This document shows, in pieces, positions 2,535 through 57,331 of a stretch of 64,000 nucleotides of DNA (position 1 is the stretch's first letter; the number at the start of each line of letters is the position of its first letter). Source of the DNA: Klebsiella sp. BIGb0407 (lineage in GTDB: Bacteria; Pseudomonadota; Gammaproteobacteria; Enterobacterales; Enterobacteriaceae); NCBI RefSeq assembly GCF_024807845.1, contig NZ_JANUEQ010000001.1, forward strand, positions 248,001-312,000, given 5' to 3'. The notes under the pieces are model-generated. The model worked only from the letters and a program-made list of their open reading frames with translations, was not told the origin of the DNA and did no database searches. Made by a program: the position numbers and the translations under genes.

Positions 2535-2808
2535 TGAATTTTCACAGTCTTGTTTAAAACTCATCAAAAGGGTACATGAGGAGCCAGCATAATTATGCAA
2601 CAATAAATACAAAAAACTATTTTCTTATAGTTTATGTTAAACGTCATCTCAGGACGCAAAGCGTCATGGATTATCCCTGAGAGTGAGCAGGACGAAGACT
2701 CAATCCGACATTGTCAGCAACATCCAGCATCTCAATCGCAGAATATAACGATACCTGAGCAAAAAGCTGTACAATGCGCGCAGACAGCCCTATTTAGAGA
2801 ATCATACT
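2535..2808. other. Divergent intergenic region ahead of dbpA
   Basis: AT-rich spacer between the minus-strand secreted-protein operon and dbpA. It should hold promoters for both, but I see no confident boxes or operator repeats. A small open frame at 2634-2843 overlaps the dbpA start and shows no coding character. Confidence 0.4.
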
Positions 2809-4182
2809 GTGACCGCTTTTTCAGAACTGAATGCTTTACCTGATGCTCAACTGACTAACCTTAATGAGCTCGGATACCTTAATATGACGCCGGTACAGGC
2901 GGCAACCTTGCCAGCGATTCTGGCGGGCAAAGATGTACGTGCACAAGCCAAAACCGGCAGCGGTAAAACGGCTGCATTTGGTCTTGGATTACTACAACGT
3001 ATTGAGGCCGGACAATTTTCCACTCAGTCGCTGGTACTGTGCCCGACGCGTGAGCTGGCAGCCCAAGTCGCGGAAGAGCTACGTCGTCTGGCACGCTATA
3101 TGCCCAATATTAAAATTCTCACCCTGTGTGGTGGACAGTCCTTTGGCGTGCAGAAAGAATCCTTACAACATGCGCCGCATATTATTGTCGCCACGCCGGG
3201 TCGTTTGCTTGACCATCTGAAAAAAGAGACCGTAAACCTTGGCTCTGTGCGGGTAGTGGTGCTGGATGAAGCCGACCGTATGCTGGATATGGGCTTTGCA
3301 GACGCTATTGACGAAGTCATGGCCTATGCGCCACCAAAACGTCAAACCCTGTTGTTCTCTGCCACCTGGCCACCCGCTATTGCGGCAATTAGTGGCCGCA
3401 TTCAGCAGAACCCGGAAACGATTGAGATTGATACCGTTGATGAGCTCCCGGCGGTTGAACAGCATTTTTATGAAGTATCGCGTCATCAGAAAATTAAACA
3501 GCTACAGCAGCTATTAAGTCAGTATCAGCCCGCGTCTTGTGTGGTGTTCTGTAATACCAAGAAAGATTGTCAGGCGGTTTGTGACGAGCTGAATGCGGGT
3601 GGACAAAGTGCTCTGGCACTGCACGGTGATATGGAACAGCGTGACCGTGATCAGACGTTGATTCGTTTCGCTAACGGCAGTAGCCGGGTTCTGGTCGCAA
3701 CAGACGTAGCTGCCCGTGGTCTGGATATCAAAGCCCTGGAAATGGTCGTTAACTACGAACTGTCCTGGGATCCTGAAGTACATGTTCATCGTATCGGCCG
3801 TACCGCGCGTGCAGGGCAGGATGGGCTGGCGGTTAGTTTCTGCGCTCCTGAAGAAGCCCAGCGTGCCGCTGTTCTCGCCGATATGCTGAATATCTCACTG
3901 AACTGGAAACAGGCCCCGGCAGCCGGAACCATTAAACCACTGGCGGCAGAGATGGTAACCTTATGCGTTGATGGCGGTAAAAAAGCCAAAATGCGTCGCG
4001 GTGATGTGCTGGGTGCATTAACTGGTGAAATGGGGCTTGATGGCGCTGATATAGGCAAAATCGATGTGCATCCGATGCATGTTTATATTGCCGTGCGCCA
4101 GTCGGTGGCTCGCCATGCAGCTTCGCAATTACAGAAAGGTAAGATCAAAGGTAAGTCGGTTAAAGTGAGAATACTGCGCTAA
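2809..4182 (+). CDS. dbpA: ATP-dependent RNA helicase DbpA
   Basis: A 457-residue DEAD-box helicase, the same length as E. coli DbpA and collinear with it from MTAFSELNALP to the C-terminus. It remodels 23S rRNA hairpin 92 during 50S subunit assembly. Visible motifs: Q motif (MTPVQAATLPA), Walker A (AKTGSGKT), PTREL, DEAD box, SAT, ARGLD, HRIGRTAR. The C-terminal RNA-binding domain (from about residue 380, MRRGDVLGALTGE) is the RRM-like module that gives DbpA its rRNA specificity. The start is GTG at 2809, fixed by homology. The gene is monocistronic and divergent from the SUMF1-led operon across a 274-base gap. Confidence 0.97.
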   Translation: MTAFSELNALPDAQLTNLNELGYLNMTPVQAATLPAILAGKDVRAQAKTGSGKTAAFGLGLLQRIEAGQFSTQSLVLCPTRELAAQVAEELRRLARYMPNIKILTLCGGQSFGVQKESLQHAPHIIVATPGRLLDHLKKETVNLGSVRVVVLDEADRMLDMGFADAIDEVMAYAPPKRQTLLFSATWPPAIAAISGRIQQNPETIEIDTVDELPAVEQHFYEVSRHQKIKQLQQLLSQYQPASCVVFCNTKKDCQAVCDELNAGGQSALALHGDMEQRDRDQTLIRFANGSSRVLVATDVAARGLDIKALEMVVNYELSWDPEVHVHRIGRTARAGQDGLAVSFCAPEEAQRAAVLADMLNISLNWKQAPAAGTIKPLAAEMVTLCVDGGKKAKMRRGDVLGALTGEMGLDGADIGKIDVHPMHVYIAVRQSVARHAASQLQKGKIKGKSVKVRILR

Positions 4183-46008: not shown

Positions 46009-46476
46009 GTGAAAAAAACATTATTAATTGCGGCTGCAGTGATGGTGATCACTGGATGTGATGGTAAATCTCAGGCGTTAAAACCTCTGCAACCTCAAGA
46101 GCCTGTGTCAATTGCAGAAATGATTGCTACAGGTAAACCGGTAATGGCTTCCGAGTGCAGGAAGGGAGAGGGGTCGTTTAACTGTGAATTCATTACCGGT
46201 GACTTAACTAAACCCGGTAAGTGGCACCATACCAGGTTAAATCTCTATAAGGGAAGAGAAGCTGAAATGGTTATCGACGGGAACCCTTATAACGTGACCG
46301 ATTTTGCAAACAATGCCACTGCCAGGCAGGAAACGACCTTGTTCGTCATGAAAAGTGCGCGAGGCGACAGAGGAGAAATAAAAATAGTGAAGTCTAGCGA
46401 AGGGAAGTCATTGAGCTTTAACGCTTATAGTTCGGATAACATACCTTATACTAAGGGCTTAGTTAAATTGAATTAA
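46009..46476 (+). CDS. Lipoprotein, paralogue 1 of 2
   Basis: A 155-residue lipoprotein starting at GTG with AGAGGTGGAAG just upstream. Lipobox VITGCDGK. The mature part has no known domain; it shares with the protein at 51639-52106 the blocks GCDGKSQ, IAEMI..GK, SEC.K....NCEF, GKWHHT, LYKG.EA.MVIDG, and RG.IKIV.S.EGK.LSFNAY. The two cysteines (SECRK, FNCEF) are conserved and probably bonded. Both copies are 155 residues with GTG starts. Function unknown; envelope-located by the signal. Confidence 0.8.
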   Translation: MKKTLLIAAAVMVITGCDGKSQALKPLQPQEPVSIAEMIATGKPVMASECRKGEGSFNCEFITGDLTKPGKWHHTRLNLYKGREAEMVIDGNPYNVTDFANNATARQETTLFVMKSARGDRGEIKIVKSSEGKSLSFNAYSSDNIPYTKGLVKLN

Positions 46477-51638: not shown

Positions 51639-52106
51639 GTGAAAAAAATACTACTGATTACTGCGGGTGTAGTGCTGCTTGCCGGGTGTGATGGTAAATC
51701 TCAAGTGTCTACGACGACCCCATCTAAAAATTTACTCACTATTGCTGAAATGATTACAAAAGGTAAGGAAGATAGAATCTCTGAATGCAATAAGAGAGAG
51801 GCCTCCCTTAACTGCGAATTCCTGACCCCTGATCTTACGAACCAAGGTAAATGGCATCATACGAAGGTGGTGCTGTATAAGGGCAAGGAAGCAAATATGG
51901 TTATCGATGGCAAAGAATTTAACGTAACCACTTTTGATACCAATGCCTCAGCAGAGCACGAAACGACCACTTTCTCCATGAGAAATACCGATGGCGGCAG
52001 GGGGGATATCAAAATAGTTAGCTCTGATGAAGGCAAACTATTGAGTTTTAATGCTTACGGTGTGGATGATAAAAGTATTGTAGCGAGTAGTGTCAAATTG
52101 AAATAA
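51639..52106 (+). CDS. Lipoprotein, paralogue 2 of 2
   Basis: A 155-residue lipoprotein (lipobox LLAGCDGK, GTG start with GAGGGTGAG upstream), paralogous over its full length to the protein at 46009-46476. Divergence is highest just after the lipidated cysteine (residues 25-45) and lowest in the GKWHHT and MVIDG blocks, so the folded core is what is being kept. Function unknown. The two copies lie 5.6 kb apart and enclose the DeoR-MFS-DUF1349 operon and the two orphan genes. Confidence 0.8.
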   Translation: MKKILLITAGVVLLAGCDGKSQVSTTTPSKNLLTIAEMITKGKEDRISECNKREASLNCEFLTPDLTNQGKWHHTKVVLYKGKEANMVIDGKEFNVTTFDTNASAEHETTTFSMRNTDGGRGDIKIVSSDEGKLLSFNAYGVDDKSIVASSVKLK

Positions 52107-52133: not shown

Positions 52134-52541
52134 TTACAAATCTGACAGCTCAATGTATTTACCGCATCCCCAGCCTTCAGACGCGACTTTGTTTGCTATA
52201 TATTCAGCCTGCATAATCTTGCCTTGTCGTTCAAAAAGAGTAATAAGTTTTTCGGCTGCCAGATGGTCTGGGTAATAAAATTTAGTACCCGGGTGTGGCA
52301 TGCCCATAATTCGTAGATACTCATCACAGTCATGCTTGTGCTTATTTATCATTGCAGCTATGACAAGAGAGGATATCTCAACCGCTCTTTCGCATAACCA
52401 GATGGCACTATCCAGGTTATTCTGATTGTATCCTAGCGCGTAATGAGCAAAAGCTTTGCTCTCGATCTTAAAATGAAGGAGCACGATTTCTTCTGGGGAC
52501 ATGTGGAATATACGGGCTATTGAATCAGTGGTCTGTTGCAT
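52134..52541 (-). CDS. Unknown protein, possibly helical repeat
   Basis: A 135-residue soluble protein with no signal peptide. It looks all-helical, with TPR-like spacing of Ala and aromatic residues (AHYALGYNQNNLDSAIWLCERAVEI, LAAEKLITLFERQGKIMQAEYIANKVA). No family recognised; small helical proteins like this can be immunity or adaptor proteins, but no toxin is adjacent. Convergent with lipoprotein copy 2, 27 bases between their stops. Confidence 0.65.
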   Translation of the reverse strand: MQQTTDSIARIFHMSPEEIVLLHFKIESKAFAHYALGYNQNNLDSAIWLCERAVEISSLVIAAMINKHKHDCDEYLRIMGMPHPGTKFYYPDHLAAEKLITLFERQGKIMQAEYIANKVASEGWGCGKYIELSDL

Positions 52542-52622
52542 GACTTATCCTTCCTGTTGATTAATTTTAGGATTTCAAAGCTTCTGGTGATTCACTCAGT
52601 CAGAGTATAGAGGTTTAATTAA

Positions 52623-53204
52623 CTATACTACTACATTAAGATACAGGCGGTGGGTAACTTTATCGGTATCTGTAATCTGAATAAAACCGGCACGTTTATA
52701 GAATGCGTGTGCTGATTCAGGTGCATTAGTATTGATAAAATTAAACCAGTCGTTAGAACCCTCAAGCAGAGCGCTGAGTAAAGCGCTGCCAATCTGCCTT
52801 TTTCTCCATTCGATTCCTACATACAGATGACGAAGCCGTCCAGCCCGAACCGAAGATGTATAGGGATCCTGGTTTAATCCACACACCGCAATAAGTGAGT
52901 CATCGGCATAAAAACCGAATAGTTTTTCCCCCGGCTTATCAAAGCGATTCTGCCCGTTCAGCCAGTTCTCTTCCAGCCTGCGTAGCAGGTTGAACCCGGA
53001 AGCCATGCTCTCCGTTTTTAACGCCAAAAAGCCTTTTTGGTCTGGGGTCATTTTCGCAATGGTACTGAACGAAGGGAAGAGATCAGAGATCAATGGCTCT
53101 ATGAGTTCGGTGATAAAGGGACTTGTTGACTGGATACACTTGAGTGAAGATGCGGTTCGTCCATCACAGAGTAAAACTCTCTTGAGTCCAACCTTTACAG
53201 GCAC
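52623..53204 (-). CDS. GNAT acetyltransferase with an abnormal 5' end
   Basis: An acetyltransferase of about 150 native residues: N-terminal segment TIAKMTPDQKGFLALKTESMASGFNLLRRLEENW, then GLNQDPY, motif A RLRHLYVGIEWRKRQIGSALLSAL and C-terminal AHAFYKRAGF. The annotated GTG at 53204 has no ribosome site, and the ATG at 53051 would cut the first strand of the fold. The 5' portion of the frame runs antisense through DNA that resembles a ColE1-type origin, so the original start was probably lost and the first 30-45 codons are foreign. It may be a pseudogene. Confidence 0.5.
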   Translation of the reverse strand: MPVKVGLKRVLLCDGRTASSLKCIQSTSPFITELIEPLISDLFPSFSTIAKMTPDQKGFLALKTESMASGFNLLRRLEENWLNGQNRFDKPGEKLFGFYADDSLIAVCGLNQDPYTSSVRAGRLRHLYVGIEWRKRQIGSALLSALLEGSNDWFNFINTNAPESAHAFYKRAGFIQITDTDKVTHRLYLNVVV

Positions 53205-53390
53205 GACAATTCAACAGTGGGGATAGACATTTGTAACTGTGTCCTCATAGCCAGCTATCTCAGTTTAAAGTGTTGGTAGCTCTGCGAACTTTAGAAAAAC
53301 CGCCTTGCAGGGCGGTTTTTTCATCGACAAGAAATTACTCGCAAAAATACAGGTTCTCAAAAGAGCTCTTTATTTATCCAGCGAAGACAT
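53140..53390 (+). other. Remnant of a ColE1/p15A-type plasmid replication origin
   Basis: Several landmarks of the RNA II and origin region appear in the correct order on the plus strand: CTTGAGTCCAACC then CACGAC (53180-53207), CAGTGG, GTAACTG, TAGCCAGCTA (53246 on), GTTGGTAGCTCTGCGAAC (about 53272-53289), AAAAACCGCC/GGCGGTTTTT (53295-53320), a degenerate form of GAGATTACGCGCAG (as GAAATTACTCGCAA), and a version of GATCTCAAGAAGATC (as GTTCTCAAAAGAGCTC). Compared with my memory of p15A and ColE1, spacing is shortened and many bases are changed, so it is probably not a working origin. No rop, mob or RNA I promoter could be confirmed. Confidence 0.72.
53295..53322 (+). terminator. Terminator-like hairpin within the origin remnant
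   Basis: Perfect ten-base stem (AAAAACCGCC / GGCGGTTTTT, six-base loop) followed by TT. In ColE1-type origins an equivalent GC hairpin with an A/T run lies near the end of RNA II. There is no plus-strand gene in front of it here, so its present role, if any, may be only to stop readthrough. Confidence 0.8.
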
Positions 53391-53447
53391 ATATTTACCG
53401 ATTACGTAATTGCTATAACGCTAAAAAAACTCATCATCTTTCAGCCA

Positions 53448-54560
53448 CTACCAGTAGCTTAAAGATACAATCATGGCTTCTGAATATTCACCAGGAGTGG
53501 TAACTGCCACAGCAGTAATTTGTGCAGTTATTTTAGTCATTGTCAATGCTGTATTATTCCGTATCTGATACGTCAGTTTGCCAGTGTTATTTTCGAATGT
53601 AACAGGTATGGTAAGCCCCCCTAAATGAATAACATTACTCATATCTTTCGTTGTTCGAATAGTCGCTATAACATCTGCATCGCCAGAACATATACTCTGT
53701 AATACAGTTGAGCCACTGGTTCCTAATGCCGTTGTTTTATCTACAGAACCTAAATTTATATCACCTGACACAGAGAAATTACATGATAAATCTGGTGTTT
53801 CAGGAACGAGCGGTTCGGAAGGGAGAGTAGTTCCCACTCCTAAAACAGCACCACAATTCAAACCATAAATATCAGTATAAGGAACTGAGTTAGGAGTCAT
53901 TCCTGCATTATGCACATAAACTCGTTTCCCTCCTGGCATCGTATATACACCTTGAGGTCCAGTGGAAACATAAACAAAGGAGTACAAACTAGAATTATTA
54001 AATGTGGCTATAAACTCAGGTTTACCATTCGGAACACCAACCCAGCGACTTTGAACACCTACACCGCCAGAAAATCCATCAAAATATAACGCGCCTGCAC
54101 TATTGTATACGTTACCCGTTATGCCCGGTTGCATTACAGTCCAGCCAACAAACACCTGAACATTACCATCAAAACTACAGTTACCAGCTGCAGAGTAAAA
54201 TGCAGGATCAATCGATAATGATATAACTCCCGTATAACTGTATCTATATGTAGTAACATCATATGAGTTACCATCTGGACCAACACCTTTCCATGGAGAA
54301 TTGGCATTCTCAATGATAAACCCGGCTCCATTTCCAGTTATACTTATTCCATTAACCAACCTTGCTTCACCAGTAACAAGGTTAAAAACTCGAGATTCAT
54401 TAGGGTAAGGTTCAGCATAAGTAAAAGGTACGAAAAATAGCAAAACACAAAATAAAAGACGCTTCCTCATATAGACAAATAGCCTACTTAGCGAATTAAT
54501 GGTCGTAAGCTTATACAGATTAGAAATCATTTTGCTTTGAAAAATACGAGTTCTATACAT
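53448..54560 (-). CDS. Orphan fimbrial-type adhesin with C-terminal pilin domain
   Basis: A 370-residue exported protein. The N-terminal lectin-like region (about 50-265, rich in Gly, Tyr, Asn) is followed by a pilin domain from about 270 (CNFSVSGDINLGSVDKTTALGTSGSTVLQSICSGDADVIATIR, ending ...EYSEAMIVSLSYW). The cysteine pair CNFS/QSICS and the final hydrophobic beta strand with penultimate tyrosine are the marks of donor-strand-accepting pilins, so this resembles a two-domain tip adhesin. ATG 54560 has a strong AGGAG site; the hydrophobic signal starts only at residue 31, giving an unusually long N-terminal extension. No chaperone, usher or major pilin is in the window. Confidence 0.75.
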   Translation of the reverse strand: MYRTRIFQSKMISNLYKLTTINSLSRLFVYMRKRLLFCVLLFFVPFTYAEPYPNESRVFNLVTGEARLVNGISITGNGAGFIIENANSPWKGVGPDGNSYDVTTYRYSYTGVISLSIDPAFYSAAGNCSFDGNVQVFVGWTVMQPGITGNVYNSAGALYFDGFSGGVGVQSRWVGVPNGKPEFIATFNNSSLYSFVYVSTGPQGVYTMPGGKRVYVHNAGMTPNSVPYTDIYGLNCGAVLGVGTTLPSEPLVPETPDLSCNFSVSGDINLGSVDKTTALGTSGSTVLQSICSGDADVIATIRTTKDMSNVIHLGGLTIPVTFENNTGKLTYQIRNNTALTMTKITAQITAVAVTTPGEYSEAMIVSLSYW

Positions 54561-55876
54561 TTGTTATCACTCCTAATAAAAAACGCAATGAACTCAATAT
54601 AGCTAACTTTTCATCTTGTGATGAATTATTTAAAGTGATTTTTTAGGTTGAGTGAAATACAACCGAATTTGAAAGAAGAGGTGGTAATGCTATAGGATAG
54701 TCAAAAATGGTTATCATGTTAAGGTAATATACCGCTAAGTCGAAAAGTCTACTTGGAGGTTTTTCTGCTCCCCCGGGCATTTACCATATCGTCGCATTGC
54801 ACGAACTACCAGGAAGGAGGGAGATGGCGTATCTGACGGAATCTTAGATAAAACTGATAACAAACCCCGAAAAAACCGCCAGAAATGCACCTGATAAATG
54901 TCACGTGAATACTTAGTCATGCAAGGAGGTCAATAAGTCTGAATTTCAGTCCTGATAGGTTAAAAGAACGGTGTTTATGGCGGTTTTATATCAGTAGCGA
55001 TACTTCCTGTTTCCTGGGCTTAGCGAGCGCTGGCTTCTGTTCCTGTCGGTTTTCAAGTTCATGACGCTGACAAATACCGCCTATTTCACGGGTTATTGGC
55101 GAAGCGGCTCTCCAGCTTGGCCAGGCAGTGAACAAAATAGATCCCCTTGTTACTGAAGGGAGCATTGAGTTTAGCTGTTTTAAAATGGTAAATCTTCTTA
55201 TCCGATTTTACCCAATCATCCTCAGGTCGGCTTTACGATGTCGTTTGTACTCGTCATAGAAATTCTCGTGCGTTCCCGGCTCAGAAATGACACGGGGAGT
55301 TTGAGTTCCGTGCTGAACTTAACTATGAGAAGGAAAAGCTTCCATGAACGGTCGCCTATCCCGCGCCACTTAACCAGCTCCCCATATGGCAAGCAGCATC
55401 AGAAAATACAATCGACGGTACTTTTCCGAACACTCCGCAGTATCAATCTATAAAACTAATTGCAAGATGCTCAATCCCCGCATCGATGTAATCGGCAATC
55501 TTTTTTAGTTTGCGTAATAGTTTTTCAGCCAAGCTGACGAGAAAGGCATATTGCTTAATCGGGGGGATTCTTTGATGGGCGTATCTGTTCGGTTTGCCAA
55601 ATTATCAAGCGATTTATTGAGAGGAAAATCCTTATAAGCGCAATCTCGATTGTAGAAAAGACGACGATTAACAGCCTGAAAGGCGCTATTTTTCATTAAG
55701 TTAGCCGCTAATTTCTGAGGGGCGTATTGGGGGCGTTTTAGGGACAAAACAGGGTTTGGGGGTGTATAAAGGGGCGTTAAATAGGCTCTATATGTCCCTG
55801 TATGTCTTTCCCGATTAATTACTAACTCCATGATTTTAAATTAATCTTATATTTTACATCAAGATATGATTTTTGT
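54561..55876. other. 1.3 kb decayed region with no intact gene
   Basis: No ORF here is convincing: the open frames are short, lack ribosome sites and show no family resemblance. The sequence shifts between AT-rich and moderate GC stretches, as in degraded mobile DNA. Its right end (55719-55779) carries a cluster of GGGG-type repeats described separately. Confidence 0.4.
55719..55779. repeat. Cluster of four G-rich repeats (integrase arm-site-like)
   Basis: The pattern GGGG(G)-C/T-GT-A/T occurs four times in the same orientation: 55719-55726, 55729-55737, 55758-55766 and 55771-55779. P4-type integrases bind repeated short G-rich arm sites of similar look beside attachment sites. No integrase gene or tRNA is nearby, so this would be a remnant. 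Confidence 0.45.
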
Positions 55877-55896
55877 TACTATACCCCCCTATAGTA
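55877..55896. promoter_or_regulatory. FrmR operator
   Basis: Perfect inverted repeat TACTATA-CCCCCC-TATAGTA, 14 bases before the frmR ATG. A GC tract flanked by AT-rich arms is the known site type for CsoR/RcnR-family repressors, including FrmR of E. coli. Formaldehyde releases the repressor. Confidence 0.88.
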
Positions 55897-55909
55897 TGCA
55901 GAGGCGCCT

Positions 55910-56185
55910 ATGCCACATTCAGAAAAAGATAAAAAACGTATTCTGACGCGGGTCAGGCGCATTCGCGGCCAGGCTGAAGCGTTAGAACGCGCTCTTGAAA
56001 AAGGAGACTCCTGCATCGAGATTTTGCAGCAGATAGCCGCGGTTCGCGGGGCTGCAAATGGTCTGATGGGGGAGATGATGGCGATTCATCTGAAAGACGA
56101 GCTGGTGACCGGGGAGACCACGGAACAGCAGCGGGCTTTACGAATGGCCGAAGTTGATAACCTAATTCGTTCTTACCTTAAATAG
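55910..56185 (+). CDS. frmR: Formaldehyde-sensing repressor FrmR
   Basis: A 91-residue four-helix repressor of the CsoR/RcnR family, collinear with E. coli FrmR. Formaldehyde forms a methylene bridge between the N-terminal Pro2 and Cys35; both are present (MPHSEK and DSCIEILQ). The RVRRIRGQAEALERAL helix is the DNA- and tetramer-contact region. It precedes frmA by 27 bases and has its operator just upstream. Confidence 0.95.
   Translation: MPHSEKDKKRILTRVRRIRGQAEALERALEKGDSCIEILQQIAAVRGAANGLMGEMMAIHLKDELVTGETTEQQRALRMAEVDNLIRSYLK

Positions 56186-57331
<1,146 letters not shown>

Follow-up and report, generated by a model that had tools for sequence, protein, structure and literature searches.

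What is a ColE1-like sequence doing inside a 1.57-Mb contig of Klebsiella sp. BIGb0407, and how much of a plasmid came with it? The locus lies in a stretch of 64,000 nucleotides (the window, in the following the whole of this stretch), and a preliminary description had read it as the chromosomal relic of a ColE1/p15A-type plasmid origin, possibly linked to a neighboring orphan adhesin gene and a disrupted GNAT gene. The features on which the analysis turns are these:

52623–53204, minus strand: GNAT acetyltransferase ORF without its native start; the arsH fragment and the relic now supply the N-terminus
53084–53180, plus strand: arsH fragment, nonplasmid, abutting the left of the relic (80% over 97 nt to the arsH of the same genome, the ORF name being our reading)
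53179–53375: ColE1/p15A-family replication-control relic (RNA I gene and 5' RNA II), plasmid homology stopping near both ends
53226–53324, plus strand: RNA I (Rfam RF00106, model positions 1–102)
53230–53240: scar of a deletion that removed about 70 bp lying between TTGGTAACTG and TTGGTATCTG in the plasmid relative
53295–53321, plus strand: RNA I terminator hairpin (SL3, ACCGCC/GGCGGT) with T run
53332–53360, minus strand: predicted RNA II promoter, aligned to plasmid and chromosomal copies
53448–54560, minus strand: orphan gene for a 370-aa fimbrial adhesin-like protein, with cer and RNA II on either side
54700–55014: cer surroundings common to small ColE1-type plasmids (68% over 198 nt to Klebsiella p4; 65.8% over 146 nt to pJBIWA005_7, _6, and _4)
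54779–54807, minus strand: cer-family XerC/XerD site, AGTTCGTGCAA-TGCGACG-ATATGGTAAAT
55136–55283, minus strand: fragment similar to a toxin region of the RelE/ParE family on Pantoea plasmids (77% over about 150 nt)
55387–55580: fragment colinear with sequence beside the ars locus of the same genome (69% over 208 nt)

Replication-Control Genes of a ColE1-Family Plasmid

The Rfam RNAI model was matched over its full length at 53226–53324, with a score of 59.9 bits against a cut-off of 47 and an E value of 1.9e-8 over the window, where no other family match reached its cut-off; it was also the only RNAI match with E ≤ 0.001 in the 5.59-Mb genome. When 53000–53600 was compared with the PLSDB plasmids by blastn, 1463 records matched, the best single piece at E = 9e-24. 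A chance match is ruled out by these two E values. The best two-piece match covered 188 query bases, more than the 100 bases of alignment to an RNA II sequence that the preliminary description would have taken as support. Over 53182–53375, the Enterobacter cloacae ColE1-type plasmid pAVS0889-d (NZ_CP092046) had 156 identities in 192 aligned positions and a single long gap. The landmarks were located where the preliminary description had placed them, above chance expectation, namely CTTGAGTCCAACC at 53181–53193, TAGCCAGCTA at 53248–53257, GTTGGTAGCTCTGCGAAC at 53272–53289, and the hairpin with its T run at 53295–53321.

The direction first assigned to these landmarks was reversed. RNA I is on the plus strand and RNA II on the minus strand, running leftward, so the hairpin is the RNA I terminator, and the elements first read as degenerate versions of the final two origin blocks constitute the RNA II promoter, whose predicted boxes on the minus strand are TTGAGA (−35, 53360–53355) and TAATTT (−10, 53337–53332) with a 17-nt spacer. 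A generic promoter and terminator scan of 53000–53600 reported nothing, the RNA II promoter included. Its consensus is stricter on the −10 box than ColE1-family boxes are; the −10 of ColE1 itself, TAATCT, fits TATAAT at only three of six positions.

On the right, plasmid homology ends at +152 from the RNA I start, shortly past the RNA II −35 box. The promoter-side end fell at +149 to +156 in 22 of 24 other copies, and at +135 and +164 in the remaining two. On the left, homology stops near 53171–53181, where the arsH fragment takes over, leaving about 50 nt of RNA II sequence beyond RNA I. A ColE1-type origin lies about 445 nt from RNA I. Here it would be expected to the left, but plasmid homology gives out about 50 nt before RNA I, and most of the 24 other copies likewise stop short of the expected origin position. 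The homology is also too short for an RNA II primer that reaches the origin with its RNase H cleavage site. The relic identified at the outset is therefore one of a replicon, as the RNAI match and the plasmid alignment show, from which the origin itself is absent.

In many database records (e.g., L118, 7192–7338, and L098, 784–942; L, G, and C numbers are our labels for loci, genomes, and contigs), a small "replication initiation protein" is annotated on the RNA II region beside RNA I. This looks like a spurious ORF, and the annotation makes the plasmid link of such regions easy to overlook.

A cer-Like Site and an Adhesin in Colicin-Plasmid Order

The relic extends further than first described, to a cer-like site at 54779–54807 on the far side of the adhesin gene. 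Its XerC and XerD arms flank a 7-nt center, TGCGACG, which was identical in two Klebsiella plasmids typed ColRNAI and in a 3.5-kb contig of a same-genus genome (G001). Compared with ColE1 cer, the arms carry substitutions at 4 of 22 positions, and the site has probably decayed. Matches to the core with up to five substitutions arose by chance seven times in 20 shuffles of the window, so the case for cer rests on the flanks. By blastn, 54540–55910 matched 387 plasmid records, 360 of them from Klebsiella, with the chief matching stretch (54761–54899) found on mobilizable Klebsiella plasmids; the two that we examined were both typed ColRNAI and one carried a colicin-like operon. Further identities across the flanks reached 69% over 155 nt in a 10-kb Klebsiella plasmid and 63% over 172 nt in pJBIWA005_5, and the sequence next to the core, where an accessory region would lie, is homologous to that beside cer in plasmids.

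Read along the minus strand, the order is plasmid-like sequence with cer, adhesin, RNA II promoter, and RNA I. Plasmid pJBIWA005_7 has a like order (cer 364–391, muramidase 516–2768, LprI inhibitor 2765–3238, RNA I 3409–3310), as does ColE1 (NC_001371), in which cer (3909–3938) is followed by the exclusion genes, the lysis gene (448–585), and RNA I (749–645), the colicin gene presumably being placed between the exclusion genes and the lysis gene. Because cer, cargo, RNA II promoter, and RNA I follow one another as in colicin plasmids, the adhesin occupies the cargo slot. The tie between adhesin and plasmid event proposed in the preliminary description thus probably holds, and the adhesin is likely to be linked to the relic, its position suggesting that it arrived with the plasmid.

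The adhesin had no Pfam or NCBIfam match. Over 355 aa, it shared 53% identity with an adhesin-like gene of same-genus G003 that adjoins what we read as pilin, chaperone, and usher-like ORFs, and which we take for the last gene of a chaperone-usher operon; contig 9 of the genome that contains the window has a 40% paralog surrounded by pilin-like genes. No chaperone-usher operon accompanies the window copy. Matches were found in three of 149 family genomes, that of the window included, and in none of 72,556 plasmids at E ≤ 1e-5, and the adhesin was consequently rejected as a known plasmid gene. Identity with the "putative adhesin" of a Shigella ColE1-type plasmid was likewise rejected in one comparison (best E 0.65).

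Residual rop or mob pieces, which the preliminary description had proposed seeking at 53.4–55.9 kb, were not seen among the ORFs, in Pfam searches of three proteins, or by blastn of 54540–55910; for 53600–54540, the comparison with plasmids used the adhesin protein alone, and short decayed pieces would escape the search. In summary, the window shares with the ColE1/p15A replicon, as represented by ColE1 and pAVS0889-d, a three-stem-loop RNA I with terminator, an RNA II promoter, the CTTGAGTCCAACC block, and the cer–cargo–RNA II order. It differs in that origin, mob, and rop were not found, the RNA I promoter is deleted, the contig is chromosome-sized, and the cargo is an adhesin. With cer/XerCD resolution sites, it shares both arms, the center of the two Klebsiella ColRNAI plasmids, and flank homology.

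Probable Insertion into Mosaic Accessory DNA

The block is set in accessory, mosaic DNA between a lipoprotein gene and frmR. Same-genus G002 joins homologs of window positions 52196 and 55817 with about 417 bp between them, and G001 and G003 match on the frmR side only. The arsH fragment and the fragment at 55387–55580 occur in the same order as at the ars locus of the same genome. The GNAT gene, described earlier as disrupted, is not so in the simple sense. Its domain is intact by Pfam, but in relatives the starting methionine lies only a few residues ahead of the conserved portion, and the window copy lacks that start, which was replaced by the arsH fragment rather than by a plasmid gene. 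Separately, paralogous lipoprotein-like genes are found about 5 kb apart in the window (46009–46476 and 51639–52106), and G002 carries two lipoprotein-like copies side by side, adjoining frmR.

Taken together, we consider it highly probable that 53179–55014 is the chromosomal fossil of one ColE1-family plasmid arc carrying cer, the adhesin cargo, the RNA II promoter, and RNA I/RNA II. The likeliest course is that a small plasmid or a linear fragment of it entered the chromosome by recombination and then eroded, leaving cargo and scars. The block would have been inserted into, or fused with, a decayed piece of the ars region, with mobilization genes and origin lost and the adhesin kept where colicin plasmids have their toxin operon. 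Counting against a single arc, the relatives of the adhesin in G003 and in the same genome lie among pilin-like genes, and the gene may have arrived separately.

An unlikely alternative takes this further, with only the 190-bp RNA I/RNA II piece derived from a plasmid and the adhesin and cer-like site being unrelated neighbors brought by separate events. The region is certainly a mosaic of arsH, RelE/ParE-like, and ars-side fragments, the only relatives of the adhesin among the sequences searched were chromosome-like, and the sequence 3' of the XerD arm is present once more in the same genome, beside an aminotransferase-like ORF. However, the three parts stand in colicin-plasmid order and orientation within 1.8 kb, and separate stretches of 146 to 198 nt, jointly spanning 54700–55014, match small ColE1-type plasmids, which argues for the one-arc reading.

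The additional copy, comprising the XerD arm and downstream sequence like that of the window and the Klebsiella cer region, is on G000:C5 (L134, 3344–3444), after the aminotransferase-like ORF. It may represent a second plasmid scar or the place from which that plasmid flank was derived.

Decay of the Replicon

In pAVS0889-d, the direct repeats TTGGTAACTG and TTGGTATCTG are 70 bp apart with the RNA I promoter between them. The window copy has lost this promoter with the stretch between the repeats. By eye, most of the 24 other copies listed retain it as TTGAAG, 17 to 18 nt, and TACACT or TAAACT; it is missing in G166 and in the second copy of G241, and half of it is missing in G403. Standard pairs remain at 8 of 11 positions in SL1 of the window RNA I, 9 of 12 in SL2, and 12 of 13 in SL3.

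The relic itself is well supported, and we read it as a dead fragment of a ColE1-family replicon. It cannot be expected to replicate, given that homology to RNA II extends only about 150 nt from the RNA II start, far too little to reach an origin, and its RNA I, deprived of its own promoter by the deletion between the direct repeats, would probably be unable to repress other plasmids. As judged from sequence, the RNA II promoter may still be active, in which case transcription would run leftward through the GNAT ORF; the adhesin, which has an open frame, may also still be functional.

We accordingly give little credence to a working element, in which chromosomal RNA I would exert incompatibility in trans toward ColE1-type plasmids, or RNA I/RNA II would regulate GNAT. 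The RNA II promoter and RNA I terminator are kept, and both promoters are kept in most of the other copies compared, but the window copy has no RNA I promoter and seven of its 36 stem pairs are nonstandard. ColE1 incompatibility requires near-exact loop matches, whereas 1088 of the 1463 plasmid matches are 80 to 90% identical and only one exceeds 90%. A conserved chromosomal small RNA or terminator merely resembling RNA I can practically be dismissed: long contigs of other genomes also have RNAI matches, but the sequence is not at the same place in the relatives compared, which rules out a conserved RNA at this site, 0 of 14 control genomes had an RNAI match, plasmid homology extends past the hairpin into the promoter and RNA II, and megablast of 52500–56500 found 0 places on Escherichia coli chromosomes.

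Effector Cassettes on Small Plasmids

Small ColE1-type plasmids of Enterobacter and E. coli (L114, L115, L116, L117, L124, L125, and L126) were found to carry muramidase or lipase effectors in the colicin slot, mostly with a following gene, and the toxin end varied among otherwise near-identical plasmids. Among those of Enterobacter sp. JBIWA005, the slot holds a muramidase and LprI (pJBIWA005_7 and _5), a related effector (_6), or lipases (_4 and _3), with RNAI over the cut-off in _7, _5, and _6 but not in _4 and _3. Enterobacter asburiae pJBIWA002_4 and E. coli pRHB15-C23_4 are similar, the gap between lipase and RNA I in the latter being about 0.8 kb. Six of the 13 effectors listed have a WHGGIH stretch near the N-terminus, a candidate for the WHIX motif in the available text of PMC12135965.

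Plasmids pJBIWA005_6 and _7 share two blocks, the effector N-terminus at 99.2% identity and the sequence from just ahead of RNA I onward at 97.2%; between these blocks, they differ in toxin end and immunity gene. The G241 chromosome compares similarly with pJBIWA005_5, at 93.9% over the effector N-terminus and 83.7% over the RNA I block, with nothing matching between. Paired homology blocks with a differing middle would be the expected trace of exchange between them.

RNA I Loci in Related Genomes

RNAI matches occurred in 65 of 392 family genomes, over the cut-off in 45, and in 27 of a draw of 394 genomes from the order, over the cut-off in 10. For comparison with the window, 18 other loci were hand-picked from over-cut-off matches with a coordinate or contig of at least 50 kb; their contigs are all at least 77 kb. 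The count leaves aside matches at low coordinates on contigs of unspecified length, two on 15- and 26-kb contigs, and matches below the cut-off; some of these are nevertheless described (G317 C11 and C27, the second copies of G216 and G241, G247, and G002).

On the RNA II promoter side, a toxin- or immunity-type family (T6SS or bacteriocin) was present at 10 of the 18 loci (L020, where GH19 barely passes its cut-off at E 9e-6; L074; L075; L076; L084, where HNH barely does so at E 2.5e-4; L085; L086, counted via VasX_N in another repeat unit and the NCBIfam tally; L088; L091; and L123, with an Hcp fragment only) and absent from eight (L077, L078, L080, L081, L082, L083, L089, and L090). The nearest promoter-side ORF converged on RNA I, with its stop 47 to 74 bp away, at eight of the 18 (L020, L074, L075, L081, L082, L083, L085, and L088); the genes at L084 and L123 and one of the two at L091 were not convergent. 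The corresponding distance from the window adhesin to RNA I is 124 bp.

The two nearest promoter-side ORFs (35 proteins) gave 13 Pfam families, all readable as toxin, immunity, or T6SS part, namely a VgrG3-like toxin with TsiV3, Pesticin with LprI, GH19 with DUF4087 (a family without assigned function), Lipase_3, Tlde1, DUF3289, Hcp, HNH, and a pore-forming colicin with E1 immunity. DUF3289 was tested as a T6SS effector, according to the available text of PMC12135965. NCBIfam added five more promoter-side families, including YrhA in L084 and a plasmid relaxase fragment in L077; a relaxase fragment is also found at L082. On the origin side, 36 proteins gave 51 families; nearly all of the 41 listed are housekeeping proteins, regulators, or transposases, and at least three families on this side are possibly toxin-related (WHH, DUF6708, and a sub-cut-off PAAR in L020). 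Matches to cer lay beyond the cargo at three of the 18 loci (L081, L083, and L085) and elsewhere at two, with none at 13. E. coli GF75 also has a cer-like site beyond the cargo, and a DUF2931 gene lies ahead of the RNA I region in E. coli HH35 and HUSEC2011. The sample behind this wider pattern is modest and hand-picked, and the pattern is more interesting than the window relic itself.

Several individual loci merit description. At L086 (G145:C1:1538500–1558228), on a 4.9-Mb contig, seven tandem units are spaced 2.3 to 2.7 kb apart, each made of an immunity-like ORF and a ColE1-type RNA I, with VasX-like effector remnants between them (one remnant was checked). At L091 (G403:C1), on a 3.67-Mb contig, RNA I is accompanied by genes for a pore-forming colicin and an E1-type immunity protein, which probably represent a colicin plasmid arc that was captured. 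The ColE1 query matched 277 places on E. coli chromosomes, and at L119 (7001–7109 of the E. coli ATCC 25922 chromosome), a 109-bp piece of it is present at 93.6%.

Relation to Known Systems and Significance

ColE1 co-integrates in large plasmids (PMC8683028) resemble the window in having a replicon with cargo in a larger replicon, one with a truncated origin. The recipient here is a chromosome, and the main text of that study contains none of the terms "type VI," "T6SS," and "effector." Plasmid-borne T6SS orphan islands (PMC13098142) likewise show effector modules on plasmids, but that survey targeted hcp, vgrG, and PAAR, mostly on large plasmids, and "ColE1" and "ColRNAI" occur 0 times in its available text. 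Effector displacement and immunity arrays of the Vibrio cholerae T6SS (PMC5361080) are similar in module exchange and orphan immunity arrays, and the main text of that paper mentions neither "plasmid" nor "ColE1." In the literature covered, which left out most subscription journals, no report was found that ties ColE1 RNA I to T6SS effectors or chromosomal scars.

The toxin-side scars in related bacteria suggest that ColE1-type plasmids deliver competition genes to chromosomes. We propose, as an idea whose chances we judge evenly balanced, that shuttling swappable competition cassettes, T6SS effectors among them, is a general role of ColE1-family plasmids. The cer–RNA II slot would hold toxin and immunity genes, effector N-termini and the RNA II/RNA I block would supply the homology for swaps, and chromosomes that capture a cassette would retain an RNA I scar, of which the window would be an adhesin-bearing example. 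If true, the adhesin slot of the window broadens the cargo of this shuttle beyond killing genes.

Fossils like the block in the window reveal which cargo small plasmids brought to chromosomes. As a tag, the RNA I block is easy to search for; tracing it led to effector-immunity pairs in related genomes, which suggests a testable route by which weapons may pass between strains without the secretion machine.
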